39,089 bases of DNA, taken from Coriobacteriia bacterium. Its GTDB lineage: Bacteria; Actinomycetota; Coriobacteriia; Coriobacteriales; UBA8131. A program made the position numbers and the translations under genes. The notes under the pieces are model-generated. The model did no database searches and was not told the origin of the DNA. It saw only the letters and a program-made list of their open reading frames with translations. Of this stretch, positions 2,983 through 39,089 are shown one piece after another (within the stretch, counting starts at the first letter, position 1; every line of letters starts with the position of its first letter). The DNA is taken from assembly GCA_009784425.1 (NCBI GenBank), contig WRBR01000006.1, positions 1-39,089 of the forward strand, given 5' to 3'.

Positions 2983-3042
2983 GTGTGTAAAATGTGAGAA
3001 TCTCCCGAGTGTTGGAGAGGTGTGACTTGCTGGAGGTGTTTT

Positions 3043-5052
3043 GTGAAGATTGGGATTGGAATTGATACCGGGGGGACCTACACGGATGCGGTTATCTATG
3101 ATTTTGAGAGTAAAGAAATCTTGGGGAGTTCAAAGGCTTTAACCACGAGGGAAAATCTTACCGTAGGAATCCTGGCAGCACTTGATGCCCTTGACCATGA
3201 CTTGGTTAAGGATGCCTCAAATGTCTCACTCTCCACAACGCTTGCTACCAACGCCTGCGTTGAAGACAGGGGTGGAAATGCCAAACTCATCTTCCTTGGC
3301 ATCGATGCCAGGGTCATAGACGAATACGGCGGCGCCTACGGGCTGCCACCTTCAAGCGAGATGTACCTACAGGAGAGCTTTACCAAATTCTCAGGCGAGA
3401 TGGAGCGCGAGCCCAACTGGGACCTGTTCCGCCAGAGCATCAAAAGTGGCTTTGAGGGCCTGGACGGTGTTGGCATCATTGAGAACAATGGCGTAAGAAA
3501 CGGTGGGATCATCGAGAAAAAAGCACGTAACATCTTTCAAGAGGAGCACAGGATTCCCGTTGTCTGTGCCCATGAACTCTTTGGTGAGCTCAACTGCTTG
3601 CAGCGGGGCGCCAGCACACTATTGAATGCCCGCTTGTTTCCTATAATCCACGAGTTTTTGCAAGCCATAAAGCTGGCTATGACGCTCCGCGGCATCAATG
3701 CAACTATCAGCATCGTCAGAAGCGACGGCAGCCTCATGACGGATAGCCTTGCCTATTCGCGCCCTGTTGAGACATTGCTCTGTGGTCCTGCTGCCAGTGT
3801 GATAGGCAGCGCCTATCTTGCAACAACGCAAAACTCCCTTATCATCGACATGGGTGGAACAACAAGCGACATAGCCCTGATACAAAACAAAGTGCCGGTT
3901 AAGGTCACCAACGGAATCGACATAGGAAGGTGGAAAACCTTTGTTGATGGTCTCTACATCAAAACCATTGGCCTCGGCGGTGACACTGCCGTTCATTATG
4001 ATGCCAAGGGTGTGTATCTGGAGGAGTATCGGATTGTCCCCCTCTCGGTGGCTGCTGATAAGCATCCCTGCATCATAGAAAACCTCAAGCGGCTGCCCAT
4101 CAGCAAAAAGAAGTTCAAGAGCTTTGCCTATGAGCACTACACTTTGATAAAAGACATCAAGGAGAGCGTGCGCCACTCAGCGAGAGCAAAAGAGCTTTGC
4201 GCCTCCTTAATAGAGGAGCCAGTCAGTCAAAGAGAGTTGACTATCAGAGCACACAAGCTGGGAGTCTCTACGGCAGAACTCTCTCAGTTGATTAAAGAAG
4301 GCATTATCCAGGTAATTGGACTCACCCCTACCGACATCATGCACATCAAGGGTGATTTCAGTGGATTCTCCACACAGGCCGCTAGCTTGGCGGCAGAGTA
4401 CGTAGCGCAGGAGTTGAATGAGTCCGTTGACGAGCTCTGCTACCACGTGTATGACAGGGTCAAACAGAGGATGTACGCCAGCATCGTTAACGCCCTGCTG
4501 GAGAACAAGAGTGGCTCAGCCTTTAGCATAGACCTACAAGAGAGCATAAGCAGCATGATCTCTGAAAGCTACAAAGAGGTGAGTTCTCCTGAGCCTGATG
4601 TGCCGATTACCCTGACCTATCAGACAGATTACTCGCTCATGGGAGTTGGTGCCCCTACGCACATCTTCTTAAGTGACGTTGCCAGTCTGCTCAACACAAA
4701 GGCAATGCTGCCAAAACACCACGAGGTGGCTAATGCCCTGGGTGCTATCGTCAGCAATGTGCAAGCAAGCTGCGTGGTGGAGATTCGCCCAAGCGCCAAG
4801 CCGGATGGAAGCGTTTACTATACCGTGTTTGGCCCCGGAGAAAACAAGAGTTTTGGCGGACTCCCCAAAGCCGAGGAATATGCACTGGCTCAGGCGGAGT
4901 TGGGAGCACAGAATGAGGTTTACAAACGTGGAGCTGCCGGCAAGGTCTTGATAAGCAGCAAAGTGGAGCGCAGTGAGTTTAAAGAAGATGGTCTAGAAGT
5001 ATTCTTAGGCTCAAAGGTTAGAGCCCAGGGAGTTGGTTCAATAGGTCTCTGA
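3043..5052 (+). CDS. Hydantoinase/oxoprolinase (HyuA-like) family protein, no HyuB partner alongside
   Basis: KIGIGIDTGGTYTDAVIYD, STTLATNACVEDRGG, LIIDMGGTTSDIALI motifs. ORF is open from 3022; GTG at 3043 has GGAGG upstream. Confidence 0.8.
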   Translation: MKIGIGIDTGGTYTDAVIYDFESKEILGSSKALTTRENLTVGILAALDALDHDLVKDASNVSLSTTLATNACVEDRGGNAKLIFLGIDARVIDEYGGAYGLPPSSEMYLQESFTKFSGEMEREPNWDLFRQSIKSGFEGLDGVGIIENNGVRNGGIIEKKARNIFQEEHRIPVVCAHELFGELNCLQRGASTLLNARLFPIIHEFLQAIKLAMTLRGINATISIVRSDGSLMTDSLAYSRPVETLLCGPAASVIGSAYLATTQNSLIIDMGGTTSDIALIQNKVPVKVTNGIDIGRWKTFVDGLYIKTIGLGGDTAVHYDAKGVYLEEYRIVPLSVAADKHPCIIENLKRLPISKKKFKSFAYEHYTLIKDIKESVRHSARAKELCASLIEEPVSQRELTIRAHKLGVSTAELSQLIKEGIIQVIGLTPTDIMHIKGDFSGFSTQAASLAAEYVAQELNESVDELCYHVYDRVKQRMYASIVNALLENKSGSAFSIDLQESISSMISESYKEVSSPEPDVPITLTYQTDYSLMGVGAPTHIFLSDVASLLNTKAMLPKHHEVANALGAIVSNVQASCVVEIRPSAKPDGSVYYTVFGPGENKSFGGLPKAEEYALAQAELGAQNEVYKRGAAGKVLISSKVERSEFKEDGLEVFLGSKVRAQGVGSIGL

Positions 5053-5064
5053 ACAACCAATCTG

Positions 5065-5208
5065 TCCCAAAATAATCAAATTAGTCATAGTGGCAAACGC
5101 GTCAAGATAGGCGCTCAACCAATGTGGCTGATAAGTCCTATATTTTCATACAAACAACCAGAGACGTTTTTAGCCTGCGTTTGTATCCTCTTTAATGAGG
5201 AATTGTAG
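5065..5208 (+). promoter_or_regulatory. Copy A of a 144-nt conserved intergenic element
   Basis: TCCCAAAATAATCAAATTAGTCATAGTGG..ATGTGGCTGATAAGTCC..ATACAAACAACCAGAGACGTTT..GCGTTTGTATCCTCTTTAATGAGGAATTGTAG; same length and gapless against 27167..27310 and 38573..38716. Confidence 0.8.
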
Positions 5209-5278: not shown

Positions 5279-5920
5279 ATGACAAGGACCGAAGAAATCT
5301 TTGAGTTAATACTCAGAGGCAAAGCAAAGGATATCTCTGACAAAGTTACTGAGGCAATCAATGCCGGAGATGACCCAAAGGAGTTGATGAATGCTGGGAT
5401 GATTGCCGCAATGGATGAGATTGGAGAAAGGTTTGCGCAAGGCGAGATCTTTGTCCCGGAGATGATGGTATCGGCTAAAGCCATGCAAAAGGGCCTTGAG
5501 ACACTTAAACCTTTTCTGTCTGAAGATGACAGCGTAGGTATCGGCACCCTGGTCATTGCCACCGTTGCCGGCGACCTGCACGACATTGGCAAAAATCTCG
5601 TAGCCATGATGCTTGAGAGTGCCGGATTTGAAGTAATCGACCTTGGCTGCGATGTTCCTGTTGATAGCTTCATCAACGCAGTTAAAGAAAACCCCAAAGT
5701 ATCGATAGTGTGCTGCTCTGCTCTGCTCACCACCACCATGCCTGCCATGAAGGAGGTCATCAACGGTCTCATTGAAGCCGGTGTGAGGGAGCAGGTCAAG
5801 GTGCTCATAGGCGGCGCTCCCGTTTCACAGAGTTTCTGTGACGAGATTGGTGCCGACGGCTACGGTGAAGATGCCGCAGCTGCCATCAAGCTCGCAAAGG
5901 CAATAGTAGCCGCTGCGTGA
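5279..5920 (+). CDS. Methyltransferase-cognate corrinoid protein (MttC/MtbC-like)
   Basis: B12-binding motif DLHDIGKNLVAMMLESAGFEVIDLGCDVP, then SALLTTTM and GGAP; N-terminal cap domain. Confidence 0.93.
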   Translation: MTRTEEIFELILRGKAKDISDKVTEAINAGDDPKELMNAGMIAAMDEIGERFAQGEIFVPEMMVSAKAMQKGLETLKPFLSEDDSVGIGTLVIATVAGDLHDIGKNLVAMMLESAGFEVIDLGCDVPVDSFINAVKENPKVSIVCCSALLTTTMPAMKEVINGLIEAGVREQVKVLIGGAPVSQSFCDEIGADGYGEDAAAAIKLAKAIVAAA

Positions 5921-6956: not shown

Positions 6957-8426
6957 ATGAGAACGAACGTAAGGGCTGGTTTTAAGCAGTCCGGAGGCTT
7001 TGGCATCAACATGTTCACAGATGATGAGCTCTACGCCCTCCATCTCTCTACTATGGAAGTCATGAACGACGTGGGCATCGGGATCAAGGATCCAGTTGCT
7101 CAAGAGGCATTGTATTCCGTTGGCTGTAGAGTCGACAAAGCAAAGGGGGTAGTACGCTTCCCAGCTTATGTGGTGGAAGACGCCATTCGTAAGGCACCGG
7201 CTTCTGTCACCTTTGCGGCAAGAAACCCCGAAAAAGACCACGTGCTCGAGGACAACCGTGTAGGATTCACCAATTTTGGTGAAGGCATCATGATCAATGA
7301 CATCTACACAGGTGAACACCGTCAAACGGTGAAGAAGGATGTTGCCCAGGCTGCCCTCATGGCTGACTGGTGTAGCGCCATCGACATCCATGAGCGCGCG
7401 ATTGCCGCCCAGGATACACCGGCCATCATCGCTCCTCTACATGAGTCACAGGTCAACATCACCAACACTTCCAAGCATTTGACGCAGGGCTGCGGAAACG
7501 TCCGTAATCTGCGGAGAATCCACAAGATGATGAGCTACATCGCCGGGTCTGAAGAGGCTTTCAGGGCTCGCCCAATCTATAGCACCATCACCTGCCCCAT
7601 CAGCCCCCTGCAAATAGCTCCTGAGTCGAGTGAGTTGATTATGGAATGTGCCCACTTGGGTATTCCCATCACCATTATCTCCATGGCGCTGGCAGGCGGC
7701 ACCACTCCCGTGACCCTGGCAGGCACCTTGATAACCCATAACGCAGAGGTGCTGGCTGCCATAACCTTGTCGCAGGCAACGGTTCCCGGCGCTCCCATAG
7801 TCTATGGTAGCTCCACCACCATCATGGACCTGAGGTACACCACCTCACCGGTAGGCTGTCCAGACTTGGCCATTATCAATGCAGCAGTAGCTAAACTGTC
7901 CCAATTCTATCGTTTGCCGAGCTGGGTTGCCGGTGGATAGGGGGATAGCAAAGTCGCCGACGGTCAAGCTGCTCACGAGAAGACACTCACCGCCTTATTA
8001 CCCGCCTTGGCAGGTGCCAATGTGATTTATGGTCTGGGAATGTTGGAAATGGGCATCACATTTGACTTCGCACAGCTCGTGATAGACAACGAGATCGCCG
8101 AAATGGTCAAGTACATAGTTAAGGGTATTGATATCAGCGATTACAACATGGCAACCAATGTGATCAAGGAGGTCGGCATTGGTGGCGAATTTGTAACGCA
8201 TGAGCATACCTATGACAACTTCAGAACCGCTCAGTCTCACTCTACCCTCTTTAATCGCGCCATGCGCGAAAGCTGGATGGCAGCAGGAGGAAAAGATCTG
8301 CTGGAGGCGGCAACTGAAAAGGCAAAATGGGTTCTGGAGAACCACAAGCCCGACCCACTACCCAGTGGCGCTGCTGAGCTGATGGAAGATATCATCGCCG
8401 AAGCCGCTGCTGAAGAAGGCGTTTAA
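6957..8426 (+). CDS. mttB: Trimethylamine methyltransferase MttB-like, pyrrolysine-containing (TAG 7938..7940, residue 328)
   Basis: ORFs 6957..7940 and 8007..8426 share a frame; read-through gives ..[47 protein letters not shown].., continuous MttB family sequence. RBS aaaggaggcgaccatATG. Confidence 0.93.
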
Positions 8427-8481: not shown

Positions 8482-9870
8482 ATGACCAAAAAGTATCTAA
8501 CCAGATACGGAGATAACTACGTAGGAGAGCTCACCGAGGCTGAAATTCGCCAGGACATCGAAGACGGCACCCTGGATGCAGCTGATCGTGGACAAATCCC
8601 TGCCATGAGCCAAGACGAGATGGACTATCTCTACGAGATCATCACGAGTCCCCAAAAGATTGTCTCGGTTGAGCCCGGCAAGGAAGTGGTTGTTTCCTTT
8701 GATGCAGGAACCTTGAAGTTGCCAACCAGAAACGGCATCCCTATGGATCGCCTGCAGGCAGTCATCACGCAGGAGCGTGCCCTGGCTTCGGACAGCACTG
8801 AGCTCTGTCATGTTGACTACAGCTACAAGCCCATTAAACCCATCATCTCTGAAGAGCGCCAAGCCATGGAGCAGATTCAGCTGATGACGACGATTCCGGT
8901 GCTCTACGGTGCCATGCCCAATCTGGGGCTTTATACCAAGCCCGATGGACCCTGCGACAACTGGGCTGAACTCTTGCCTGCTGGCAAGATAACCGAGGCA
9001 ATGGAAGCCCAGGAAGAAGCGGTTGAACACGCAATCAAGGACATCGTCTTTGTGGCTTCTTCCATGATTGAAAGTGGAGCTGACGGCATCAATCTCGACA
9101 CCGTTGGTGCTTCCGGAGACGCCGATGTCAAGGCCAGCCTTGAGGCGGTTAGGATTCTGAGCAAGAAGTATCCCACCACCGGTTTTGAGGTGGGCATGGC
9201 CGGCGAGTTCAACCTTGGCATGCACGGTGAGCTCACCTTTGATGGCGAAGTACTTGCCGGTATGTACCCCCACAAGCAGGTGTTAATGGCCCAGCAGGCA
9301 GGTGTGGGCATTTTTGGCATGGCTGTTAACACCAACAGCAGTCAATCCCTTGCCTGGAACCTTGCCCGAGTGGTTACCTTTGCCAAAGAGACCGCAAAAG
9401 TTGCGACGATTCCCGTCCACGCCAATGTGGGCATGGGAGTGGGAGGCATTCCGCTTTCTATCATTCCTGCAGCAGACGCAGTCTCACGCGTGGACAAGGC
9501 ACTGGTAGAGATTGCAGGCCTTGACGGCCTCTAGGTAGGTGCCGGAGATACCTTCGGCATGGCAGTGACCCACGAGAGCACCGCTGGAATGGGCGGCATA
9601 AGAAGTGCCGGCGATCTGGTGTTCAGGATGGAACTGCAAAAGATGAAAATCAACGAAGCCAAGAAATATGTGGCTGAAAAACTACGCGTAAGCGTTATGG
9701 ATCTGGCTGACTGCGCCGTAATGAAAGACCTCCGTGAGGAGCTCAACATAGGCACCGTTCAGTCACGACCTGATGCAGGCGTGGGTATCCAAACAAAGTT
9801 CCGCATTGCAGAGCTGTTGGGTGTTCCTATTAACAGCGTTGATATGTTCAAAAGACAAGCTGGTCTTTGA
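8482..9870 (+). CDS. mtbB: Dimethylamine methyltransferase MtbB-like, pyrrolysine-containing, copy 1 (TAG 9532..9534, residue 351)
   Basis: Read-through gives ..[46 protein letters not shown]..; matches the methanogen MtbB context ..EIAGVDGI-O-IGVGDPLGMP... Confidence 0.93.
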
Positions 9871-14741: not shown

Positions 14742-16130
14742 ATGAGTAAAAAGTATCTCACCAGATACGGAGACAACTACCTCGAAGAGATGACAGAAGC
14801 AGAGATTCGCCAAGACATCGAGGACGGCACCTTAGATGCAGCAGATCGTGCGCAGATTCCTGCCATGACCTCGGACGACATGGATCACCTCTTTGAGATC
14901 ATCTCTAATCCCCAGAAGATTGTTTCGGTTGAACCGGGCAACGAAGTAGTGGTGACCTTTGACGCAGGAACCTTGAAGCTCTGCGTAAGAAGCGACATCC
15001 CCATGGACCGCCTGACAGCATGTGTGACCCAGGAGCGTGCGCTGGGCTCAGACAGCATTGAGCTCTGTCATGTTGACTACAGCTACAAACCCATCAAGCC
15101 CATCATTTCCGAAGAGCGCCAGACCATGGAGCAAGTACAGCTGATGACCACCATACCCGTGCTCTACGGCGCCATGCCCAACCTGGGGCTTTACACCAAA
15201 CCCGACGGCCCTTGCGGAAACTGGGCGGAGCTTTTGCCTGCCGGCAAGATAGCTGAGGCCAAGGAAGCCCAGGAAGAAGCAGTGCAGCATTCAATCAAGG
15301 ATATAGTCTTTGTGGCCTCTTCCATGATAGAAAGCGGAGCAGACGGCATCAATCTTGACACCGTGGGCGCTTCAGGTGATGCCGACGTTAAGGCAAGCCT
15401 TGAGGCGGTACGTATCATCAAGCAAAAGTACCCCACAACCGGCATTGAAATGGGCATGGCCGGCGAGTTCAACCTCGGCATGCACGGCGAGCTCACCTTT
15501 GACGGTGAGATACTTGCCGGCATGTATCCCCATCAACAGGTGAGAATGGCAGAACAGGCCGGCGTGGACATCTTTGGCCTGGTAGTCAACACCAACAGCA
15601 GCCAATCCCTCGCCTGGAACCTTGCGCGCTCCGTCACCTTAGCCAAGGAAACGGTTAAGGTGGCCAAAATACCCGTACACGCCAACGTTGGCATGGGAGT
15701 GGGCGGCATTCCGCTTTCCATCATTCCGGCAGCTGATGCCGTCTCGCGCGTAGACAAGGCACTGGTAGAGATTGCAGGCCTTGACGGCCTCTAGGTAGGC
15801 GCCGGAGATATCTTCGGCATGACAGTGACCCACGTGAGCACCGCTGGGATGGGCGGCATAAGAAGTGCCGGTGATCTGGTGTTAAGGATGGAACTGCAAA
15901 AAATGAAAATCAACGAAGCCAAGAAATTTGTGGCCGACAAACTGCGCGTGAGCGTCTCTGATTTAGCAGACTGCGCTGTTATGAAGGACCTCCGCGAGGA
16001 GCTCAACATCGGCACCGTTCAGTCAAGACCTGACGCAGGCGTAGGCATACAGACTAAGTTCCGCATTGCAGAGCTTTTGGGAATTCCTATCAACAGCGTT
16101 GACTTGTTTAAAAAGCACGCCGGCTTGTAA
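14742..16130 (+). CDS. mtbB: Dimethylamine methyltransferase MtbB-like, pyrrolysine-containing, copy 2 (TAG 15792..15794, residue 351)
   Basis: Close paralog of 8482..9870; read-through gives ..[46 protein letters not shown]... Confidence 0.93.
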
Positions 16131-23069: not shown

Positions 23070-23188
23070 TCTACAACAGAGGTTCTTTGTCTTCAATTAA
23101 AGTATGCGGTCTCTCTTTTCAGCTCAAGCTTATATAATATTCTGAGTAAGTGCTGGCGCTGGCCAAGCTGACCAGAAGAGGAGCATGT

Positions 23189-25513: not shown

Positions 25514-26833
25514 CTAGTGGCGCTGCAAGTTGCGGTATTGAGTGGGAGTAATCCCCTCTTCTCTTCTAAAGACCTTGGTAAAGTAGCTGGCATCCGAGTA
25601 CCCCACATTTGAGGCTATCTCGTCAATGAGATACATGGGGTTGCGCAGCAGCCTCTTTGCATCTTCAAGGCGCACTGCGGTGAGATATTCCATGATGGTG
25701 CAATCCTGCACCGTTTTAAAGAGCCTGCTCGCATAGCTGGGGCTCAAATACACCGCTCCTGCTATCATCTCGAGAGTCAGATTCTCCCGATGGTTTTCCA
25801 TGATAAAGCGCTTTATTTCGCTGACCTTGCCATTTGTTGGGCGCTCGTTTAAGGTGGCGATGCTCTCAAGATAGTGATCAAGAAGCTTTTGCACTTGGTG
25901 ACAAATCCCCTCACTGGTCTTTTGTCGGTAGATCTCATCAAAGAAAACCCTGTTGGTTGCGATAGTCTGGTCCATACTGACACCAGCATCAACGGCACAG
26001 CGAGAGACGAGAACACACACGGCAATGACGCCGGTGCGCATAAGGTCTATATCCTTGTCACTGGAGACCATGATGTCTGCCAGGAGCTTTTGCAGGAGCC
26101 CTCGTGCGCCTTCTGCATCCCCCAGGGTAATCTTCGTCATCATTTTTTGTTCGTTGGTGAGTGAATACCCTGCTGCCCTGTCGGCAAGCCCCATCTCGAG
26201 CATGTTGCGGTTTTTTATCTCCTCATGCAGCAGCGCCTGTTGATAGGCGATTTCTTTTATCTGGGTAAAATTGTTCCAACCCGCCTTCATGATGTAGTTG
26301 GCGATGATGTGCATCAGGTACGAGGCACTTTGCACCACCTCGGGTGAGATGACCGGTAATTCCTTGACGCAGGCAAATAACTCAGCAAAGTCGGTGGTTA
26401 AGTCTTTATTGAACTCGCGGAGTTCAACCCAGAAAAAGTCCTCGGGCTCCCACATGAGCACTTGCCCACAGATAACTGAACCCAGGTGCTCGCCTTCAAC
26501 GATGATAGGGGCAGCCCACTCCACAAGACCGGAGGGGCATCTAAAAATGCTGGGCTCACCTATGAGAGCCGCCTGTTTGCCATAGCGTTTGTACGCACCG
26601 CGACACCGCTCAAGGCCGCCCTCTAAACTATAGATGTGCTTGCAAAACGAGCAGCTCTTATTAAAATTGGCGCGGGAGAATATAGATCTACCCTCCACGT
26701 CTACGATATTAGCCATGAGATTGGTAGTTCCGGAGAAGGCCTCAAGTATGCCCTTCATAACCTCTATGTCAACAAAGTTGAGGAGCTTCTCACGTTTGTT
26801 TTTCTCGGGGGTGTTTACCGTGTCAACTATCAT
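25514..26833 (-). CDS. PocR-type sensory domain plus AraC HTH regulator; terminates at TAG in frame with downstream corrinoid protein
   Basis: N-terminal CSFCKHIYSLEGGLERCRGAYKRYGKQA..FRCPSGLVEWAAPIIVEGEHLGSVICGQV (PocR-like); C-terminal AraC HTH ITPTQYRNLQRH. Stop 25516..25514 = TAG. Confidence 0.88.
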   Translation of the reverse strand: MIVDTVNTPEKNKREKLLNFVDIEVMKGILEAFSGTTNLMANIVDVEGRSIFSRANFNKSCSFCKHIYSLEGGLERCRGAYKRYGKQAALIGEPSIFRCPSGLVEWAAPIIVEGEHLGSVICGQVLMWEPEDFFWVELREFNKDLTTDFAELFACVKELPVISPEVVQSASYLMHIIANYIMKAGWNNFTQIKEIAYQQALLHEEIKNRNMLEMGLADRAAGYSLTNEQKMMTKITLGDAEGARGLLQKLLADIMVSSDKDIDLMRTGVIAVCVLVSRCAVDAGVSMDQTIATNRVFFDEIYRQKTSEGICHQVQKLLDHYLESIATLNERPTNGKVSEIKRFIMENHRENLTLEMIAGAVYLSPSYASRLFKTVQDCTIMEYLTAVRLEDAKRLLRNPMYLIDEIASNVGYSDASYFTKVFRREEGITPTQYRNLQRH

Positions 26834-27166: not shown

Positions 27167-27310
27167 TCCTAAAATAATCAAATAAGTCATAATGGCTTCT
27201 GAGCAAGGATTGGAATGAAAGCAATGCGGCTGATAAATCCTATAAATTCATGCAAACAACCAGAGACGTTTTTGGCCTGCGTTTGTATTCTTTTTCATGA
27301 AGAACTGTTG
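27167..27310 (+). promoter_or_regulatory. Copy B of the 144-nt conserved intergenic element
   Basis: TCCTAAAATAATCAAATAAGTCATAATGG..ATGCGGCTGATAAATCC..ATGCAAACAACCAGAGACGTTTTTGGCCTGCGTTTGTATTCTTTTTCATGAAGAACTGTTG. Confidence 0.8.
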
Positions 27311-27399: not shown

Positions 27400-29016
27400 G
27401 TGGCTTACGTGGCTAATAAACTGAAAGAGGTTCTCGATAGCGGAGAGTTTGCTGTCACCGTAGAGATGATACCGGGACGAGGAGCTCGAGAGGACGCACA
27501 GATTCACGAGCATGAGGCGATGGAGCAGATCTATGCAACAGGACGCGTGCATGCCATTTCCATCACCGATAACCCGGGGGGTAACCCAGCCATTTTGGCA
27601 GACCAGATAGCCCGTGACTTTGCCAAGAGCAACATCTGCTCACTGGTGCATTTTACCTGTAAGGACAGAAGTCGCAATCAAATGCAGGCGCAACTCTATG
27701 CTTTGGATAGAGAAGGCCTGGATAATGTACTGATGATGTCTGGCGACTACCAAATATCGGGCTTTATGGGCAGAGCACGACCGGTCTTTGACTTGGATCC
27801 GGTGCAGGCTCTTATGCTCGCAAGCGAGATGAACAAGGGGCTGATAGTTGAAGGACCGCGCGGCTCCTCGCAGGAAAAGCCCTCGAGCTTTTTTCCGGGC
27901 GCTGTAGTTAACCCCTTCAAATACACCGAGGGAGAGGCTATCCCCCAGTATCTTAAGCTTGAGCGCAAGATACTCGCAGGAGCTCAGTTCATCATCACCC
28001 AGCTTGGGTACGATGCACGCAAAATGGAAGAACTCATCATGTACACACGCGAGAGAGGCTACAACGTTCCTCTCATTGCAAACGTCTTTTTGCTTACCAG
28101 AGGCGCTGCCAAGCTCATGCAGAAGGGTGCCATAGCGGGATGCTACATCAGCGATGAACTGATGGAGAAACTCGAGGAGGAGTTTTTGGCAGAAGACAAG
28201 GGAAAGGCTGCCCGCATAGAGCGCGCCGCTGTTATCACTGCCATAGCCAAGGGGCTCGGCTATGCCGGAGTACATATTGGAGGATTTGGCCTTGATGCCG
28301 CTATGGTTACCAAGATCTTAGATCGCGCTGAAGAGCTTGCAGGTGAGTGGAGGCAGCTGGTTCCTCTTTTGAGCTTTGGCGATGATAAGGGTTACTTTAT
28401 CTATGAGGCCAAGCGAGATGCCGAGGGCAACCCTACCGGCCTCAACGCCTCCACAAAAGCCCCCGGAAAAGAAGCGCCCAAGAAAAGAAAGATCTATAAG
28501 CGCTACCGCCTCTCACGTTTCTTCCACCACATGGTTCTCACCAAGGATAAGGCCTTCTATGGCATACTTGCGGGCTCAATGGACAGACGAGACAAGAAGA
28601 AGGGTCTTAACCGCCACCACGCACTTGAGCACACCGGCAAGGCCTTTCTCTATGGCTGTATCGACTGCGGAGACTGTGGGCTTGAGGCCTGTGTGTATAC
28701 CTGCCCCATGTCACAATGCCCCAAGTGCCAGAGAAACGGTCCTTGCGGAGGCTCTAACCCCGGTGGATGGTGTGAGGTATATCCTAACGAGCGTTACTGC
28801 ATCCATTACATGGCGTATTATCGCCTGAGGAAGTATAACGAGCTGCAGAAGATGTCCTCTTATACCACCCCGCCTAACAACTGGGATTACTTTGAAACCA
28901 GCGGTTGGTCCAACTATACGCATGAGCGCGATAACGCTGCCAACCGTATTCCCCTGTCCATTGGACTGGATGCACCAAAAGCACAAAGCCTATCATCAGA
29001 TAGTGAAAGCGCATAA
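27400..29016 (+). CDS. metF: Methylenetetrahydrofolate reductase (MetF) fused to MTHFR C-terminal/MetV-like Cys-rich domain
   Basis: N-terminal VTVEMIPGRGARED, HAISITDNPGGNPA; C-terminal GCIDCGDCGLEACVYTCPMSQCPKCQRNGPCGGSNPGGWCEVYPNERYCIHYMAYYRL. Confidence 0.88.
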   Translation: MAYVANKLKEVLDSGEFAVTVEMIPGRGAREDAQIHEHEAMEQIYATGRVHAISITDNPGGNPAILADQIARDFAKSNICSLVHFTCKDRSRNQMQAQLYALDREGLDNVLMMSGDYQISGFMGRARPVFDLDPVQALMLASEMNKGLIVEGPRGSSQEKPSSFFPGAVVNPFKYTEGEAIPQYLKLERKILAGAQFIITQLGYDARKMEELIMYTRERGYNVPLIANVFLLTRGAAKLMQKGAIAGCYISDELMEKLEEEFLAEDKGKAARIERAAVITAIAKGLGYAGVHIGGFGLDAAMVTKILDRAEELAGEWRQLVPLLSFGDDKGYFIYEAKRDAEGNPTGLNASTKAPGKEAPKKRKIYKRYRLSRFFHHMVLTKDKAFYGILAGSMDRRDKKKGLNRHHALEHTGKAFLYGCIDCGDCGLEACVYTCPMSQCPKCQRNGPCGGSNPGGWCEVYPNERYCIHYMAYYRLRKYNELQKMSSYTTPPNNWDYFETSGWSNYTHERDNAANRIPLSIGLDAPKAQSLSSDSESA

Positions 29017-29052
29017 GGAATAATTCATAGAAAAAAAGGAAGAGGTAGACAC

Positions 29053-29859
29053 ATGATCATCATTGGAGAAAAAATTAACGGGTTCATCAAAAAAACCAGG
29101 GAAGCGATTGAAGCAAAAGATGCTGCCTACATCAAAGAGCTTGCCATCAAGCAACAGGAATGCCGGTCATCTTACATCGACATCTGCGCCGGAACGGCAC
29201 AAGAGATTGAGATGGAGACCATGGAGTGGCTCATAGGGCTGGTCCAAGAAGTCTCAGACCTTCCCATCAGCTTGGACAGCTCTGATCCGCAGATCCTGAT
29301 TGACTGTATCCCGCTCTGCAATAAACCGGGCATGATCAACTCAGTGTCAATGGAGGAGGGCAAGGTTGAGAAGATCTTCCCCATCATCGCAGACACCGAC
29401 TGGAACGTTGTGGCACTCACGTGCAACCAGGATGGCATCCCCAACGATGCAGAAACCAAGTTTGCCATCGCAAAGGACATCATCGCTGCAGCCCACAAAT
29501 ACGGCATTGCCGAAAACAGGGTCTACATCGATCCTCTCGTCACCACCCTTGGCACCAGCTCGGACTCCATGCTGAACTTTGTTGGCGCCTTAAAATTGAT
29601 TAAAGCTGAGCTGCCCGGCGCCTTTACCACCTCGGGGCTCTCAAATATCAGCTATGGACTCCCCTACCGCAAAAGCATTAACATGCAGTTCTTGTGCCTC
29701 TGCATGGATGCAGGGCTCGACAGCGCCATTTTGGATCCGCTGGATCCCTACATGCAGTCAGTGATCTATGCCACAAACGCACTTTTGGGCAAGGATGATT
29801 ACTGCATGGAATACCTTGACGCCTACCGAGAGGGCCTCCTGCCGGTTAAGCCTGAGTAA
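29053..29859 (+). CDS. Methyltetrahydrofolate:corrinoid methyltransferase (MtgA/AcsE-like, pterin-binding family)
   Basis: IIIGEKINGFIKKTREAI, YIDICAGTAQ, PISLDSSDPQIL, NSVSMEEGK, TSGLSNISYGLPYRKSIN. Confidence 0.9.
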   Translation: MIIIGEKINGFIKKTREAIEAKDAAYIKELAIKQQECRSSYIDICAGTAQEIEMETMEWLIGLVQEVSDLPISLDSSDPQILIDCIPLCNKPGMINSVSMEEGKVEKIFPIIADTDWNVVALTCNQDGIPNDAETKFAIAKDIIAAAHKYGIAENRVYIDPLVTTLGTSSDSMLNFVGALKLIKAELPGAFTTSGLSNISYGLPYRKSINMQFLCLCMDAGLDSAILDPLDPYMQSVIYATNALLGKDDYCMEYLDAYREGLLPVKPE

Positions 29860-29929
29860 ACAGCATACTGAACAGTACACTGTACCTATGACAAGTTAGT
29901 AAGATTTGCGCACCAGAAAGGAAGACTCC

Positions 29930-31597
29930 ATGCCAACTGACATTGAGATTGCACAATCGGTAACCCCCCGTAAAATAACCGAGGTAGCAGAGGACTTGAA
30001 CCTCAACATGGACTACTTTGAGCCCTATGGCTACTACAAGGCCAAGATTGACTACAACATCCTTGACAAGATTGACCGCCCAGAGGGCAAGCTCATCTTA
30101 GTCACCGCCATTACCCCAACGCCTGCCGGAGAAGGAAAGACCACTACTCTCGTGGGTCTAACCGATGGCCTTGCCAAGCTGGGCAAAAACGCCATAGTGG
30201 CACTCAGGGAGCCTTCTCTTGGCCCGGTCTTTGGGGTCAAGGGTGGAGCTGCCGGAGGCGGCTGGGCACAGATCATACCCATGGAAGACATCAATCTGCA
30301 CTTTACGGGTGACTTTCATGCTATTGGGGCAGCCAACAATCTGCTTGCAGCACTCATTGATAACCACATTTATCAGGGCAACGCTCTTGACATCGATACC
30401 AAAAATGTCACCTGGAGGCGCTGCGTTGACATGAACGACCGCCAACTGCGCTTTGTTGTTGACGGCCTTGGCGGAAAAACCAACGGAACCCCCCGCGAGG
30501 ACGGCTACGACATCACGGTGGCTTCAGAGATTATGGCAATTTTCTGCCTTGCCACCTCTATCACCGACCTCAAGGAGCGCATAGCTCGTATCATCATTGG
30601 CTACAATCGTTCAGGCAAGCCGGTAACGGCAGGAGAGCTCAAGGCTGAAGGTGCCATGGCGGCACTTCTGAAAGATGCACTCAAGCCCAATCTCGTTCAG
30701 ACCCTGGAAGGTACGCCGGCCATTGTGCACGGCGGGCCCTTTGCCAACATCGCCCACGGCTGCAACTCCATCATAGCCACTCGTATGGCCATGAAGCTCG
30801 GTGACTTTGCCGTAACCGAGGCAGGTTTTGGAGCAGACCTGGGTGCTGAGAAATTCCTCGACATCAAATGCCGCGTTGCCGGACTCAAACCCTCTGCAAC
30901 CGTCATCGTCGCCACTGTGCGCGCGCTCAAAATGCATGGCGGAAAACCCAAGGATCAACTGATGAACGAAGATCTTGAGGCCTTGAAGGCGGGGCTTCCC
31001 AACCTACTCCAACACGTCTCCAATATCACCGAGGTCTTTGGGATACCGGCAGTGGTAGCCATCAATGCCTTCCCCACCGACACGGCCGCAGAGCTGCAGC
31101 TTGTAGAAGACGAATGCAAAAAGCTTGGTGTTAACGCTGTTTTGTCTGAGCACTGGGCCAAGGGCGGCGAAGGCGCACGTAAGCTTGCCGAAGAAGTGGT
31201 AAAAATCACTGAAAGCGAGCATGAGCTTACCTATAGTTATGATGAGGATTTATCCATCGAAGATAAGCTCAACGCCATCGCAACTAAGATCTATCGTGCA
31301 GACGGCGTAGACCTCACCCCGCTGGCTAAGCAGCAGGCAGCAATGCTTGAAGACCTTGGTTTTGGCAAGTTACCCATCTGCGTTGCCAAGACACAGTATT
31401 CCTTCTCGGATAACCCGGCTCTCATTGGTGCCCCTAAAGGCTTCAGGGTTGCGGTGCGCAGCCTCAAGGTAAGCGCAGGTGCCGGATTCATCGTTGCCCT
31501 CACCGGCGAGATTATGACCATGCCCGGCCTGCCCAAGGCTCCCGCAGCCGAGAAGATCGATGTGGATGCCACTGGCAAGATTACCGGTCTCTTCTAA
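29930..31597 (+). CDS. fhs: Formate-tetrahydrofolate ligase
   Basis: [66 protein letters not shown] 29930 preceded by AGAAAGGAAG. Confidence 0.96.
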
Positions 31598-31613
31598 TAG
31601 TTAAGAGGTAGCT

Positions 31614-32243
31614 ATGGACTACACAAAGATGAGTTGCGAGGACTTTGTAGAAGTCCTCGCGTCCAAGGCACCGGTGCCGGGTGGCGGCGGGGCTGCAGCC
31701 CTTGTGGGTGCTCTAGGCATGGCTTTGGGAAGCATGGTGGGCTCACTCACCGTAGGCAAGCCCAAATTTGCAGACGTTGAGGCGGATGTAGCTGAGCTCA
31801 TGAGGCAAGCTGCTGAGCTGCAGTCAAAGCTCCTGGAACTTGTCAAGCGGGATGCAGAGGTGTTTGAACCTCTTTCAAGAGCCTATGGCATGCCCACAGA
31901 AACCGAGGAGCAAAAGGCCGAGAAAGCACGCGTCATGGAAGAATGTCTGCAGGAATGCTGTGCTGTTCCTTTAGAGATCATGAAACGATGTGCAGAGGCA
32001 ATCGACCTGCACGAGCAATTTGGTGAAAAGGGCACTGCCATTGCCATAAGTGATGTAGGATGCGGGGTCATCTGCTGCAAGGCGGCCCTGCAGTCAGCAA
32101 GTCTGAATGTTTTCATCAATACCAAATGGATGGAAGACAAACGCAATGCAGAAGCAATAAACGCTGAGGCAGATCAGATACTCCAAACCTACCTTGCCAA
32201 GGCAGACGCAATCTTTGCCGATGTTGAAAAGCGTTTCAGATAA
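31614..32243 (+). CDS. fchA: Cyclodeaminase/cyclohydrolase family protein (FchA-like)
   Basis: FVEVLASKAPVPGGGGAAALVGALGMALGSMVGSLTVGK. Confidence 0.9.
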   Translation: MDYTKMSCEDFVEVLASKAPVPGGGGAAALVGALGMALGSMVGSLTVGKPKFADVEADVAELMRQAAELQSKLLELVKRDAEVFEPLSRAYGMPTETEEQKAEKARVMEECLQECCAVPLEIMKRCAEAIDLHEQFGEKGTAIAISDVGCGVICCKAALQSASLNVFINTKWMEDKRNAEAINAEADQILQTYLAKADAIFADVEKRFR

Positions 32244-32258
32244 GAGAGGAGAGTTACC

Positions 32259-33152
32259 TTGATGACTGATTCAAATCTTGATACAAGCGCAGAGACCGTC
32301 CTTTTGAAGGGTGCAGACGTTGTTGCCGCCCTTGACGAAAAAACCTCTCAGAGGATAGAAGCCTTACGCCTCAAAGACATCAGACCAACTCTCGCAATCT
32401 TGAGAGTTGGCGAGCGAGGCGAGGATATCTCATACGAAAGAGGCGCAAGCAAGAGGGCCGAGAAAGTGGGGGTTGAGGTGCATTCGGTTGTGCTGCCAGA
32501 AGACGTATCCCAAGCCGAACTCCTCAACACCGTTGAAAAGCTCAACGCGGATGCCTCGGTGCACGCCGTGCTCATGTTTCGCCCCCTGCCAAAGCATATT
32601 GATGAGGGGCTTGTCCGCAACGCCCTCTCGCCTGATAAAGACATTGACAGTATCACCGACCTTTCACTTGCCGGGGTCTTCTCGGACAGCGCAGTAGGGT
32701 TTGCCCCCTGCACCGCGCAGGCCTGCATGGAGATACTCAGTCACTTTGGCATAGAGACCAAAGGCAAGAAGACTGTGGTGGTGGGAAGGAGCCTCGTTAT
32801 TGGCAAGCCGGTAGCCATGATGCTCTTGAAAGAACATGCCACCGTGACCATCGCTCACTCGCGCACCATAGACCTGGCAGATGTTGTTGCCTCTGCGGAT
32901 ATCGTCATCGCGTGCGTAGGGCGGGCACAGATGATTGGACGAGAGTTTTTGAGCCCCGGCCAAGTGGTCATCGACGTAGGAATAAACGTAGCAGAGGATG
33001 GCTCATTGGTGGGCGATGTAGATACTAACGCGGCTCTCACCTGTGTCTCGGCCATCACTCCGGTACCCGGAGGAGTAGGCACGGTAACTACCTCGGTGCT
33101 CATGAAGCATGTGGTAGAAGCAGCAGAGCGCAGTGTGGAAGAGGCGGTTTAA
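32259..33152 (+). CDS. folD: Methylene-THF dehydrogenase/cyclohydrolase
   Basis: [81 protein letters not shown]. Confidence 0.95.
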
Positions 33153-33724
33153 TGCAAGAAGACAACCGCACACGTGTTGAACATGCGGTGAGGGAGATTC
33201 TCTTTGCCATTGGCGAAGACCCCTCCAGAGAGGGCCTGGTGGAGACACCTGCCCGTATTGCACGAATGTACGAGGAGCTTCTCTCAGGACAAGAGGTAGA
33301 CCCCAGGGAGCACCTCAAACGTTTCTTTGTTGACGATGGGCATGAGGAGATGGTGTTGGTTAAAGACATCCCTTTCTCGTCGATTTGCGAGCATCATCTC
33401 ATGCCCTTTGTAGGTAGGGCACATATTGCTTACATACCTAAGAACGGACGAGTAGTTGGTCTCTCAAAGCTGGCGCGGGTGCTGGAGAGCTATTCCAGAA
33501 GGCTCCAGCTGCAAGAAAGGCTGACGACTCAGGTAGCAGATACCATCATGGAGATGCTCATGCCGCAAGGAGTGATGGTTGTGATTAATGCTGAGCATCT
33601 CTGTATGACTGTAAGGGGTGTGAGAACCCCCGGATCCACCACAACGACCTCCGCGGTGAGAGGCCTGTTTAAGAATGACCAGCGCACACGCTTGGAAGCG
33701 TTGGAGTTTCTGACTATCAAATAG
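33152..33724 (+). CDS. folE: GTP cyclohydrolase I; ends at TAG
   Basis: [63 protein letters not shown]. Confidence 0.96.
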
Positions 33725-33876: not shown

Positions 33877-34710
33877 TTGATGCAATTCACGAAGAACCAG
33901 ATTCAAAGGTTAAGCGAGCTCGGTTGTGATTTTGACGCTGAGCACTCCTTTGCATCCGCAGATGCGAGGGAGCTGGCCTTCAAGGAGATGGAGCGCAGGA
34001 GCGTTGAGAAAAACCGGGCTGCCCTTCGTGATTTGAGGAAGGCCAAAGACGCGCCCTTTGTAAGTGCTCTGAGTGAGAGCATCTCGGCATTCTTGAGGGG
34101 TCTGGGCTTTCTGGAAGTTTCCACGCCCATCATCATTTCAAAGAGTTTTCTTTTGCGCATGACCATCGAAGATGACCATGCCTTGTTCAAGCAGGTGTTT
34201 TGGCTTGATGACAAAAGCTGCCTCAGGCCCATGCTGGCGCCAAATCTCTACGACATCTCCAAGCGGCTGCTTAACGTCTACGAAGCACCTCTCGGCGTTT
34301 TTGAGATAGGCCCTTGCTTTCGCAGGGAATCCCAAGGCAACAAGCACCTTGAAAGCTTCACGATGGTGAACTTTGTGGAATGGGGTGTTCTGGAGTCTCA
34401 GAAGACCGAGCGCCTCAAAGAGCTCATCTCCCTCTTTATGGAGCACGTAGGGCTGAGTGAATACTCCCTTGAAGAAGAAGACTCCGTAGTCTACGGCGAT
34501 ACAATAGACGTTGTTGTTGACGGCGTTGAGATTGCCTCGGGGGCTTTTGGTCCCCATCCACTGGACAGTAATTGGGATTACGCGGGCACCTGGATTGGTC
34601 TTGGCGCCGGCTTGGAGCGCATTGTTCTGATGCAAGAAAACCTGGATAGCATTCAAAAGACAGGGAGAAGCCTGCTCTATCTGGGAGGAATAAGTTTAAA
34701 ACTCAAGTAA
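33877..34710 (+). CDS. pylSc: Pyrrolysyl-tRNA synthetase catalytic domain (PylSc)
   Basis: STPIIISKSFLLRMTIEDDHALFKQVFWLDDKSCLRPMLAPNLY, IFEIGPCFRRESQGNKHLESFTMVNF-type motif, SVVYGDTIDVVVDGVEIASGAFGPHPLD, WIGLGAGLER. Confidence 0.96.
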   Translation: MMQFTKNQIQRLSELGCDFDAEHSFASADARELAFKEMERRSVEKNRAALRDLRKAKDAPFVSALSESISAFLRGLGFLEVSTPIIISKSFLLRMTIEDDHALFKQVFWLDDKSCLRPMLAPNLYDISKRLLNVYEAPLGVFEIGPCFRRESQGNKHLESFTMVNFVEWGVLESQKTERLKELISLFMEHVGLSEYSLEEEDSVVYGDTIDVVVDGVEIASGAFGPHPLDSNWDYAGTWIGLGAGLERIVLMQENLDSIQKTGRSLLYLGGISLKLK

Positions 34711-34717
34711 AAGTGAG

Positions 34718-35800
34718 ATGAAGAACATGGACGTCAGTTTAGCGGGCATCAGCTCGCTGTTGAGCACAAATCTGAATAAAGACGAGTTATTCGCAAAAGC
34801 CCGGCAGGCCAGGTTTGAGCATTTTGGCAACGAAGTCTTTGCCTATGGCTTCAACTACTTTTCTACCTATTGCTCAAACCACTGCAGCTTTTGTTACTAC
34901 CAAAGTGATAATGCCCATACCATTCGCTATCGCAACAGCACCGAGCAGGTGGTTGAGGATGCAAGACGCTTGGCGGATTCCGGTGTTCACCTGATAGATT
35001 TGACTATGGGAGAAGATCCCTACTACCAGCAGCACATCGAGAGGCTCGCTGACCTGATCCAGAGCGTTAAAAGCGCCACCGGTCTTCCTGTCATGATATC
35101 ACCGGGTGTTTTGGAGGCTTGGCAATTACGTCTCCTTAAGGAGGCAGGCGCTACCTGGCTTGCTCTCTACCAGGAAACCTTTGACAAGGCTGCATTTGAG
35201 AGACTTCGTATCTGCCAGTCCTTTGAGGCTCGGCTGCGAGTCAAAGAAGAAGCGATAAAAGCTGGGCTCTTGGTTGAAGAGGGCCTTTTGACCGGCTGGG
35301 GCGACAGTTGCGAAGACGCGGCTGCCTCCATCCTTGCTATAAACAGCACTCACCCAACGCAGGTGCGCGCTATGTCTTTTGTTCCTCAGCCAGGTACGCC
35401 ACTTGAGAGCTGGCCTGCAGCTGACAGTGAGCGGGAGCTCTTGATAATCGCTCTTCTCAGGCTGCTGTATCCCCACAAGCTTATCCCGGCATCCCTGGAT
35501 GTTGAGGGACCAAAAGGTCTTGAAGACCGCTTAAATGCCGGAGCAAACGTCATCACTTCACTGATTCCGCCGCAATCAGGCCTTGTGGGGGTAGCGAGCA
35601 GGGATGACATCAAAGACGGAGGGCGGAGCCTGCCTCAGATTCAGACGATACTTGACAATGCCGGGCTCAAGCTGGCTTCAAGCGCTGGTTATCAGGCATA
35701 TATCCAGGCGGCCTTGGACGAGCATGTTCGTTTTGGACGTGCGGACACAGAGACTTCACCTACTGATTTTTGTGCGCGTGAACACGCCAAGGTGTGGTGA
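34718..35800 (+). CDS. pylB: Methylornithine synthase PylB (radical SAM)
   Basis: FSTYCSNHCSFCYYQSDN radical SAM CxxxCxxC; adjacent to pylSc and pylC. Confidence 0.95.
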   Translation: MKNMDVSLAGISSLLSTNLNKDELFAKARQARFEHFGNEVFAYGFNYFSTYCSNHCSFCYYQSDNAHTIRYRNSTEQVVEDARRLADSGVHLIDLTMGEDPYYQQHIERLADLIQSVKSATGLPVMISPGVLEAWQLRLLKEAGATWLALYQETFDKAAFERLRICQSFEARLRVKEEAIKAGLLVEEGLLTGWGDSCEDAAASILAINSTHPTQVRAMSFVPQPGTPLESWPAADSERELLIIALLRLLYPHKLIPASLDVEGPKGLEDRLNAGANVITSLIPPQSGLVGVASRDDIKDGGRSLPQIQTILDNAGLKLASSAGYQAYIQAALDEHVRFGRADTETSPTDFCAREHAKVW

Positions 35801-35807
35801 GAGTGCC

Positions 35808-37061
35808 ATGAGATTACTGGTATTAGGCGGACAACTCCAAGGAACCGAGATCACCTATTTGGCAAAAGAAGCCGGGTGGACAGTTAGCGTTGTCGATAAA
35901 AGAGAAGGTGTCTTGGCTTCAAGACTCTGTGACCACTTCATTTGCCTGGATATCCTTCAGGCCAGCCCTGACCTATTTTGCGGCTTTGACCTTGTTTTGC
36001 CGGCGCTTGAGGATTTGAGCGTCCTCAAACGTGTCCTGGAGCTGACTCAGGAAGCAGAAGTTCCCTTTGCCTTTGATTGGCAGGCATTTGTTCTCTCCCG
36101 TTCAAAGATACGGTCAAATATTTTTCTAGAAGACCTTGGGGTCAGAGTCCCTCTACCCATTGAAGAGTGTGTCCTGGAGAATCAGAAAACCTCAGCTGAA
36201 CTATCTGGCAACAGCAAACTTGAGCAGTGCTATATCGTTAAGCCAAATTGCAGCAGCGGCAGTAAGGGTGTTGAGCGTTACCGTGATATTAATGCAGCAT
36301 ATGCCAGAATCTGCGCTGACCCAAGCGAGGGTCTTTTTGGTCAGGTCTTTTTAGAGGGCCCGATTTATTCGATTGAAGTCATATGCAACTACCAGCTGGT
36401 AAAGCCCTATATGGTTACGGAGGTAGTGGTAGACGATGAATATCACAGCCACCGCATACTTGCGCCGGCACCTATCTCAATTGAGTTGATAGAAAAGATC
36501 GAAGATCTCGGCATGAAAATCGGAAGCGCTCTTAACATGAAGGGCATCTTTGACATCGAGATGGTATACAACGAAGGAAACCTCTCTGTGCTTGAGATAG
36601 ATGCCCGCATGCCAAGCCAGACTCCTATTGCGGTTTACCACGCAAGCGGCATCAACCTAGTTGAGGAACTCGCGAGAGTTTTTCTTGAGATTCCCTCTGC
36701 ATCAAGCCTCACCTTGCCTCCTTTCAGCAAGACCGGCGCAGAGTATTCTCGCCACGTTGTTCTCCAGCATGTTCTTGCTCAGAAAAAGAAGGTGTCAAGC
36801 GCCCACAGTTCTACTGAGCAGCAGCTCACAGCTGAGGAATCTGTTGTACACTTTATTGGTGAGGGGGAGCTGACTCGCGCACCGGCGCTCAATCGGCAGA
36901 ATGGCTTTTGTGGTGCTGATGTAGCGTTAATCGGCAATGACGCAATGCAGAGCTGCTTATTCGCTACCCTCGTGGCTATTGACGAATCAAGCAATTTGGC
37001 GGTTTGTAAAATGGACAGAATAGTAGAAGAGCTCGCTTTAAAGGTGGCTGCAGATGACTAG
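35808..37061 (+). CDS. pylC: 3-methylornithine-L-lysine ligase PylC (ATP-grasp); ends at TAG
   Basis: MRLLVLGGQLQGTEITYLAKEAGWTVSVVDKRE, IVKPNCSSGSKGVERY, FDIEMVYNEGNLSVLEIDARMPSQTP. ORF is open from 35604 but ATG 35808 fits. Confidence 0.94.
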   Translation: MRLLVLGGQLQGTEITYLAKEAGWTVSVVDKREGVLASRLCDHFICLDILQASPDLFCGFDLVLPALEDLSVLKRVLELTQEAEVPFAFDWQAFVLSRSKIRSNIFLEDLGVRVPLPIEECVLENQKTSAELSGNSKLEQCYIVKPNCSSGSKGVERYRDINAAYARICADPSEGLFGQVFLEGPIYSIEVICNYQLVKPYMVTEVVVDDEYHSHRILAPAPISIELIEKIEDLGMKIGSALNMKGIFDIEMVYNEGNLSVLEIDARMPSQTPIAVYHASGINLVEELARVFLEIPSASSLTLPPFSKTGAEYSRHVVLQHVLAQKKKVSSAHSSTEQQLTAEESVVHFIGEGELTRAPALNRQNGFCGADVALIGNDAMQSCLFATLVAIDESSNLAVCKMDRIVEELALKVAADD

Positions 37062-37854
37062 ACTCTCTTCAGACCATATCAACTTGATAAACCAACGCCT
37101 GCCCAAGCTCGAAGAGCATTATCAGTCGATCACCGGCAAAAGCGTTCTTGAGATAGCACACTTTGCCTCCGGCACTGATTTTTTGCCTCTTGAGCAACGC
37201 AGTAAGCTTACCGTTGCCAGTATCCCTATTTCTTGTGGCGACGGAATCATCGGTGATTTTTCTGAGACCGTAGCGTTGGTCTTGAAAGAGTTTGCCGGTG
37301 TGAATACCTTTGTAACCGAATGCACGGATGTGGCCGGCTTCAATGAGGCTCTCGTCAAAAAAGCGGACATGGTCTTTATGGCAGATGACAAAGTTTGCCT
37401 CTGCTTAAACCTCCGCACCGGCGCACATTCCGACAACGGCTTTGCCACGGGTCGCGGCTTTGCCGCACTTCTCTACCTGAGTGCCCACGAGAATATCACC
37501 GAAGAAGTGCTCGTTCTTGGGGCCGGTAAGGTTGGTGCCGGCGCGTATCATTTTCTTCAAGCCAAACATGTCCCGGTTCGCTGGTATGATCTAAAGGAAT
37601 CATCGCCCCACGGTTTAGATGCACAGCTCCTGGCCGGCGACTGGAAAAAGCGGGAGTGGAACTACATCATCGACGCCACTACCAGCCCCTCCTTCATTGG
37701 CGCAGACCAAATCAAGGCGGGCGGGATAATCTCTGCCCCCGGCATCCCCTTTGGCGTGAGCAATGCGGCTTACAAAAAAGCCGGACTGGTAATCCGTGAT
37801 GAGCTGGAGACAGGCATCATGTCAATGTTTTGCGAGGCATCAAAACATGCGTAA
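37054..37854 (+). CDS. pylD: Pyrrolysine dehydrogenase PylD
   Basis: MTRLSSDHINLINQRLPKLEEHYQSITGKS, TGRGFAALLYLSAHENITEEVLVLGAGKVGAGAYHFL; overlaps pylC (ATGACTAG). Confidence 0.95.
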   Translation: MTRLSSDHINLINQRLPKLEEHYQSITGKSVLEIAHFASGTDFLPLEQRSKLTVASIPISCGDGIIGDFSETVALVLKEFAGVNTFVTECTDVAGFNEALVKKADMVFMADDKVCLCLNLRTGAHSDNGFATGRGFAALLYLSAHENITEEVLVLGAGKVGAGAYHFLQAKHVPVRWYDLKESSPHGLDAQLLAGDWKKREWNYIIDATTSPSFIGADQIKAGGIISAPGIPFGVSNAAYKKAGLVIRDELETGIMSMFCEASKHA

Positions 37855-38137
37855 CACCAGCAACATCGGAGCAAAATATCGCGAGAAAAATGCCGGTCTC
37901 CTCAAAACCGTTTTGAAAATCAAGCTCTGGCGCTCCCGCACCGGCATCCTCCACGGCATCAAAGAGGTAGAGAGCAGCGGAGAATGGCTCCTCCTCTCAA
38001 CCCACTGCGGCATAAACTTCAAAGTCAGAAACAGCAAAAACGGCCGTGGCCTCCGACAACTAAAAAACAAAAGCTTCAACAAACCCTGCAAAAAATGCGC
38101 CGTCCCTGGGTGGAAACTGGAGAAATTTGGCGCGTGA
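37847..38137 (+). CDS. pylSn: PylSn (N-terminal tRNA-binding domain of split PylRS)
   Basis: 96 aa: IKLWRSRTGILHGIKEVESSGEWLLLSTHCGINFKVRNSKNGRGLRQLKNKSFNKPCKKCAVPG aligns to M. mazei PylRS [50 protein letters not shown]; overlaps the pylD stop. Confidence 0.9.
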   Translation: MRNTSNIGAKYREKNAGLLKTVLKIKLWRSRTGILHGIKEVESSGEWLLLSTHCGINFKVRNSKNGRGLRQLKNKSFNKPCKKCAVPGWKLEKFGA

Positions 38138-38246: not shown

Positions 38247-38426
38247 AAGATTTTGGTGGCTACTTTTGCTACAAATTTCCACTTGTGCGCGAAATATGAC
38301 TCTTTTTTAAACTGAAAGTGGCAGATTTCATTGCAAAACCACCATTTAGGGGTGTTTAACCTCTTTAAAGCGGCAAATCATCGCGCACAAGTGGAAATTT
38401 GTAGCAAAAGTAGCCACCAAAATCTT
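38247..38426. repeat. 46-bp perfect inverted repeat with 88-nt spacer
   Basis: 38247..38292 AAGATTTTGGTGGCTACTTTTGCTACAAATTTCCACTTGTGCGCGA is the reverse complement of 38381..38426. Confidence 0.9.
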
Positions 38427-38572: not shown

Positions 38573-38716
38573 TCCCGAAAAACGCAAATATGTCATAGTG
38601 TTGACTGTAACAACTTGGGCAAAAAACCAGTGTGGTTGATAAATCCAATTATTTAATGCAAACAACCAGAGACGTTTGGCGGATGCGCTTGTATCCTTTT
38701 TGATGAGGAACTGTAG
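38573..38716 (+). promoter_or_regulatory. Copy C of the 144-nt conserved intergenic element
   Basis: TCCCGAAAAACGCAAATATGTCATAGTG..GTGTGGTTGATAAATCC..ATGCAAACAACCAGAGACGTTTGGCGGATGCGCTTGTATCCTTTTTGATGAGGAACTGTAG. Confidence 0.78.
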
Positions 38717-38769: not shown

Positions 38770-39089
38770 ATGGTTAGAAAGTACGTGCTGGGTAAGTCAA
38801 AGACCTGTGTTGGTTGTAAAACCTGTATGACTGCCTGCCTGACTAAACATTTTGAGGATGATGACATACCACTTTTCCGGATAAATGTGGTTAAGCTGGG
38901 AGATGAGACTATTGCCCTTGCCTGCCGCCACTGTGAAAAGGCGCCCTGTGTAAATGCCTGCCCGGTTGGTGCTCTTTATTACGATTTAGACCGCGTTGCG
39001 GTTAACATGCATAGATGCATTGGGTGTTCAGGTTGTATCAATAACTGCCCCTATGGCTCGCTGGTCCTTGCTAATCGACCTCAAAGCAA
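38770..39089 (+). CDS. 4Fe-4S polyferredoxin-like electron transfer protein (HycB/CooF-like), truncated by window end
   Basis: MVRKYVLGKSKTCVGCKTCMTACLTKHF..ACRHCEKAPCVNACPVGALYYDLDRVAVNMHRCIGCSGCINNCPYGSLVLANRPQS; no stop before window end, so absent from the ORF track. Confidence 0.85.
   Translation, partial: MVRKYVLGKSKTCVGCKTCMTACLTKHFEDDDIPLFRINVVKLGDETIALACRHCEKAPCVNACPVGALYYDLDRVAVNMHRCIGCSGCINNCPYGSLVLANRPQS

Follow-up and report, generated by a model that had tools for sequence, protein, structure and literature searches.

A repeated 144-nt cis-regulatory element in front of pyrrolysine and one-carbon genes of a Coriobacteriales bacterium, probably an activator-dependent promoter-operator

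The closest described counterpart of the element reported here is the PocR-activated Pcob promoter of Salmonella, where the PocR boxes have lengths of 20 and 48 bp and lie 52 bp apart, the second being only 9 bp away from the -35 (PMC11264322). In PMC9768040, a passage that cites Anantharaman and Aravind 2005 discusses a role of PocR domains in sensing small hydrocarbons. The locus studied here resembles Pcob in several respects: the regulator encoded by a linked gene is of the AraC type and contains a PocR sensory domain, there are two putative upstream boxes of about 28 and 54 bp, the second of which is close to the putative core promoter with its -10-like region, the control region spans 150-170 bp, and the pathway is linked to corrinoids. 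It differs in organism and pathway and also in the spacer between the boxes, which comprises about 23 instead of 52 bp, and the likeness meant here is one of layout. In addition, the regulator scores 166.6 bits against the NCBIfam PocR equivalog model and thus falls below its cut-off of 500 bits. A second point of comparison is provided by the multi-site operators of the AraC family (araBAD type), with which the element putatively shares sites that keep a fixed helical spacing and precede a promoter whose -35 is weak. Unlike those operators, the element did not reveal a clear half-site repeat: none that was convincing was found within it, and its best inverted 8-mer only equals the maximum of 60 shuffles. 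Finally, the element is located upstream of folate and corrinoid genes just as are the THF, cobalamin, SAM and other one-carbon riboswitches collected in Rfam, but it matches none of these families, has no conserved fold and possesses a promoter-like 3' end.

The window, i.e., the complete stretch of 39,089 nucleotides that was analyzed, is an entire contig (C6) of a metagenome-assembled genome (MAG) with a size of 2.0 Mb and a completeness of 86%. It carries three copies of exactly 144 nt that align without gaps, as had been claimed in the original prediction. Copy A (5065..5208) precedes the gene group for a corrinoid protein, MttB and MtbB, copy B (27167..27310) is situated between a divergently oriented gene for a PocR regulator and the MTHFR operon, and copy C (38573..38716) resides in front of a gene for a 4Fe-4S electron carrier. 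All three are intergenic, lie on the + strand and have the same orientation. Pairwise identities over the 144 nt amount to 114 (A-B), 106 (A-C) and 104 (B-C), while the copies reach at best 59/144 on the + and 60/144 on the - strand of the window when placed, without gaps, at unrelated sites. The placement shortly before the start codons of the corrinoid protein, MTHFR and 4Fe-4S genes was also borne out, with measured gaps of 70 nt (start codon at 5279), 89 nt (27400) and 53 nt (38770), respectively. A diverging middle part is indeed present, albeit at about element positions 29-52 and not at about 30-58 as proposed earlier. Note that an independent repeat finder assigned a length of 160 nt to the copy family, so that conservation starts a few bases upstream of the element as delimited here.

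The genes behind the copies belong to one metabolic context. Downstream of copy A, all on the + strand, follow the gene for the corrinoid protein (5279..5920), which contains B12-binding domains, mttB (6957..8426), which is read through an in-frame TAG and encodes an MTTB domain together with a pyrrolysine insertion element, and the first mtbB copy (8482..9870) for a dimethylamine methyltransferase with one in-frame TAG. In-frame TAG occurs in mttB and in two mtbB genes of the contig, which also encodes RACo-like protein(s). Rfam PYLIS elements at 7938-8037, 9532-9631 and 15792-15891 coincide with the in-frame TAG sites of mttB and both mtbB genes, and mtbB was absent from every other genome in a sample of 301 from the class. 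The first genes after copy B encode MTHFR, a methyl-THF methyltransferase, FTHFS, cyclodeaminase, FolD and FolE (27400..33724, + strand) and are followed on the same strand by pylSc, pylB, pylC, pylD and pylSn (33877..38137). The last of these is a small open reading frame (37796-38137) without a Pfam match that was identified as pylSn via TIGR03912 (2e-25), such that both halves of PylS flank pylB-C-D. A gene for tRNA-Pyl was not found in the window with ARAGORN. Behind copy C lies a HydN-like 4Fe-4S electron-carrier gene (38770..39087, + strand) that is cut by the end of the contig.

Several further features of the region deserve mention. A hydantoinase-A-like gene (3022-5052) ends just upstream of copy A, and a hydantoinase B/A pair (10731-14644) sits amid the methyltransferase genes. 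The methylamine gene cluster also contains a gene (18069-19367) for a protein of 432 amino acids that resembles a short phenylalanyl-tRNA synthetase alpha/beta fusion, with scores far below the family cut-offs. Upstream of copy C, a perfect 46-bp inverted repeat (38247-38292 / 38381-38426, 88 nt between the arms) represents a MITE-like family of 180 nt, which recurs in at least eight more places on other MAG contigs. The sharing of this family with several other contigs argues against a binning error.

A sequence-only covariance model was built from the three copies and run on the MAG and on 33 genomes of the family, a search proposed in the original prediction. It found no further copy in the 2.0-Mb, 86% complete MAG and one more copy above noise among the family genomes, which is diverged and stems from the congeneric genome G002, with an E-value of 5.9e-4 when calculated per genome and of 5e-5 over the retrieved loci. 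This fourth copy is located 96 nt before a corrinoid-protein gene whose product is 82% identical to its ortholog encoded immediately behind copy A. The gene that comes next encodes the ortholog of the PocR-AraC regulator from the window. Its overall length is within 2 nt of that of the 144-nt copies. Four model matches, including this one, were inspected by alignment; matches that scored low in other genomes of the family (E 0.04-0.22) were rejected. Searching the same genome and its relatives with an exact-core pattern returned three extra matches that are due to chance, the one in the same genome lying inside a dnaJ gene. A candidate for a second element before the MTHFR gene of G002 was no better than shuffles. 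When a four-copy model was applied with stricter filters to 401 genomes sampled from the class, no other match was obtained, nor was the element matched in viral contigs and plasmids.

The distribution of the element was compared with that of two genes. Among the 33 family genomes, an ortholog of the PocR gene is present in three (G000, G002 and G009), pylD in six and the element in two, and the latter are exactly the two genomes with both the PocR ortholog and pylD. These numbers refer throughout to incomplete MAGs, as all family genomes with pyl genes, PocR or the element belong to this category and all four copies originate from two of them, with G002 being 71% complete. G009 and four further pyl clusters of the family yielded no copy. 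Pyl clusters with neither the element nor a PocR ortholog are G012:C73, G014:C117, G015:C20 and G023:C201 (L079, L083, L081 and L082), and in G015 a different AraC-type HTH gene adjoins pylD. Target coherence, fixed orientation, the diverged ortholog in the same place, the promoter-like 3' end described below and the co-occurrence with a regulator all support a role of the element in control of the adjacent genes. We thus state that it is real, conserved and cis-regulatory.

Conservation within the element is confined to blocks. In copy A, block I (CAAAWNNGTCATARTG, 5065..5092, + strand) constitutes a putative upstream regulator box, with 20 of 30 columns invariant in the three copies. Block II consists of a first half (RTGYGGYTGATAARTCC, 5116..5139, + strand; 17/24 columns invariant) and a core (ATRCAAACAACCAGAGACGTTT, 5148..5169, + strand; 21/22), the latter forming a putative box that overlaps or abuts the -35. 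The promoter-like 3' region (5179..5201, + strand) is invariant in 18 of 23 columns. In columns that are invariant in copies A to C, the G002 copy agrees in 15/18 (block I), 13/17 (block II, first half), 15/21 (block II core) and 13/14 cases (3' region), values that are somewhat inflated because the four-copy alignment was fitted by the model. Between the blocks, the G002 copy keeps the length and not the sequence, with agreements of 2/5, 0/4 and 0/4.

Two candidate -10 hexamers that come close to TATAAT are present on the + strand in the 3' region of each copy from the window. In copy A, these are TATCCT (5184-5189) and TTTAAT (5191-5196), while the candidate positions are 27286-27291 or 27293-27298 in copy B and 38692-38697 or 38699-38704 in copy C. 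The first hexamer is in register in all four copies (TATCCT, TATTCT and TATCCT in A, B and C, TATACT in G002) and follows the pattern TATNCT. The second, five to seven bases later, reads TTTAAT, TTTCAT and TTTGAT in A, B and C (TTTNAT) and TATAAT in G002, a match with a chance probability of about 0.02 for that copy. The register of the -10 is ambiguous by 7 nt, and TTTNAT and TATAAT are displaced by 2 nt between the species. Identity between the copies ends some 12-19 nt past the candidate hexamers, about where transcripts would start; the 53-96 nt left between there and the genes differ and terminate in ordinary ribosome-binding regions. A promoter scan revealed no consensus sigma-70 pair on the + strand, meaning that the promoter would have a poor -35. 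Two conserved blocks, a variable spacer of fixed length, a conserved -10-like region and an end of conservation near the expected start together convey the appearance of an activator-dependent promoter, which would imply activation rather than repression.

The best candidate for the cognate regulator is the PocR-AraC protein encoded on the - strand at 25514..26833 (PF10114, 4e-42; HTH_18, 1e-21). Its gene adjoins copy B and is divergent from the operon behind it. Within the family, orthologs occur only in G002 (73%) and G009 (59%), and a search of the GTDB genome collection retrieved only these two already known proteins. The PocR-AraC protein probably binds the element. Whether it is the sole determinant is doubtful given that the ortholog in G009 has HTH residues nearly identical to those of the protein from the window in a genome without a detectable element. 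This observation is also in favor of the notion that the same promoter-operator responds to another regulator, be it the second AraC-type protein in the window (23150-23893) or a factor encoded elsewhere. We regard this alternative as conceivable but rather doubtful, because the second AraC-type protein finds only paralogue-level matches and has no ortholog in the element-bearing G002 (71% complete), while the PocR gene neighbors copy B and its ortholog lies beside the fourth copy.

The original prediction had left two options, a riboswitch or other cis-regulatory RNA on the one hand and a complex operator on the other. The cis-regulatory role and the operator are supported by the analysis; the RNA part lacks support, since Rfam matches above noise, a folding signal over controls, compensatory changes and a terminator are all missing. 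According to this second reading, the element would be a riboswitch or a protein-binding leader in a 5' untranslated region, transcribed from an upstream promoter and sensing methyl-THF, a corrinoid or a methylamine. A conserved sequence before one-carbon genes is compatible with such a leader. As predicted, the 3' part can pair, the arms doing so in 95% and 92% of cells and the named helices in 90.5% (three copies), though not fully in every copy, as the second hairpin is broken in register in copy B. The statement that some changes keep pairing holds for one-sided G-U changes only, because in the named helices no pair was changed on both sides, be it in three or in four copies. Covariation had been suggested as a check for a structured RNA, and compensatory changes were absent; with just four sequences the power is low, and the result represents absence of support rather than disproof. 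Folding of copy A alone is better than that of shuffled sequences (z -2.9), but for copies B, C and that from G002 there is no such gain over shuffles (z +0.7, -0.1 and -0.3), and folding of the alignment with RNAalifold showed no excess over column-shuffled alignments on either strand (z -0.32 and +0.67). No terminator was found between copy A and its gene. In the Rfam scan, none of the families reached its gathering score within the element, and relaxing the thresholds brought up only noise; in the original prediction, too, the element had not been recognized as a cobalamin, SAM, TPP or THF riboswitch. Taken together, we consider a riboswitch unlikely and give the broader class of cis-regulatory RNA little credence. 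The more specific idea that a new structured RNA, perhaps with tertiary contacts which nested folding misses, acts as sensor of a methyl carrier and governs the genes for pyrrolysine and one-carbon metabolism in Coriobacteriales appears still less probable.

Insertion of a mobile repeat or MITE that came to lie near these genes by chance is hardly credible. Several near-identical copies in one genome and the true MITE family nearby might suggest it, but there are only three copies, all before genes of the pathway and in one orientation, terminal inverted repeats are missing, a diverged copy occupies the orthologous site in another species, and viral contigs, plasmids and the 401 sampled genomes of the class contain no match. 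Nor does the element occur at many unrelated loci, which the original prediction had named as the mark of a mobile repeat. A leader peptide encoded inside the element is just as hard to credit, because, even though 144 nt equal 48 codons, an open frame spans the 3' half in copies A and B and 15 of 39 codon differences in frame 1 are synonymous at positions 58-144, the variable columns are spread evenly over the codon positions (16, 16, 18), copy C contains an in-frame TAA and the G002 copy an in-frame TAG and TAA, and the copies share no common start or stop codon.

The reading we favor, and consider probable, is that the element is an activator-dependent promoter-operator, most likely bound by the PocR-AraC protein (25514-26833), that coordinates one pathway in a gut bacterium. 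Each copy would then be a double-stranded DNA control region reaching from about -130 to just past +1. Blocks I and II would be the binding sites of one regulator, kept at a fixed helical distance by a spacer that is free in sequence but not in length, and the 3' part (TTGTATYCTYTTTNAT) would serve as a core promoter with a weak -35. The signal sensed by PocR-AraC may be a methylated amine or a different small metabolite from the pathway, and the protein would recruit RNA polymerase. In this way, three like promoters could jointly switch on the methylamine methyltransferases, the tetrahydrofolate branch together with pyrrolysine biosynthesis, and the iron-sulfur electron carrier.

The literature searched contains little on how bacteria switch on pyrrolysine use. 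If the proposed regulon is true, the pyrrolysine machinery, its client methyltransferases and the downstream folate pathway would rise and fall together in a bacterium, and the element and its linked regulator offer a concrete, testable pair.
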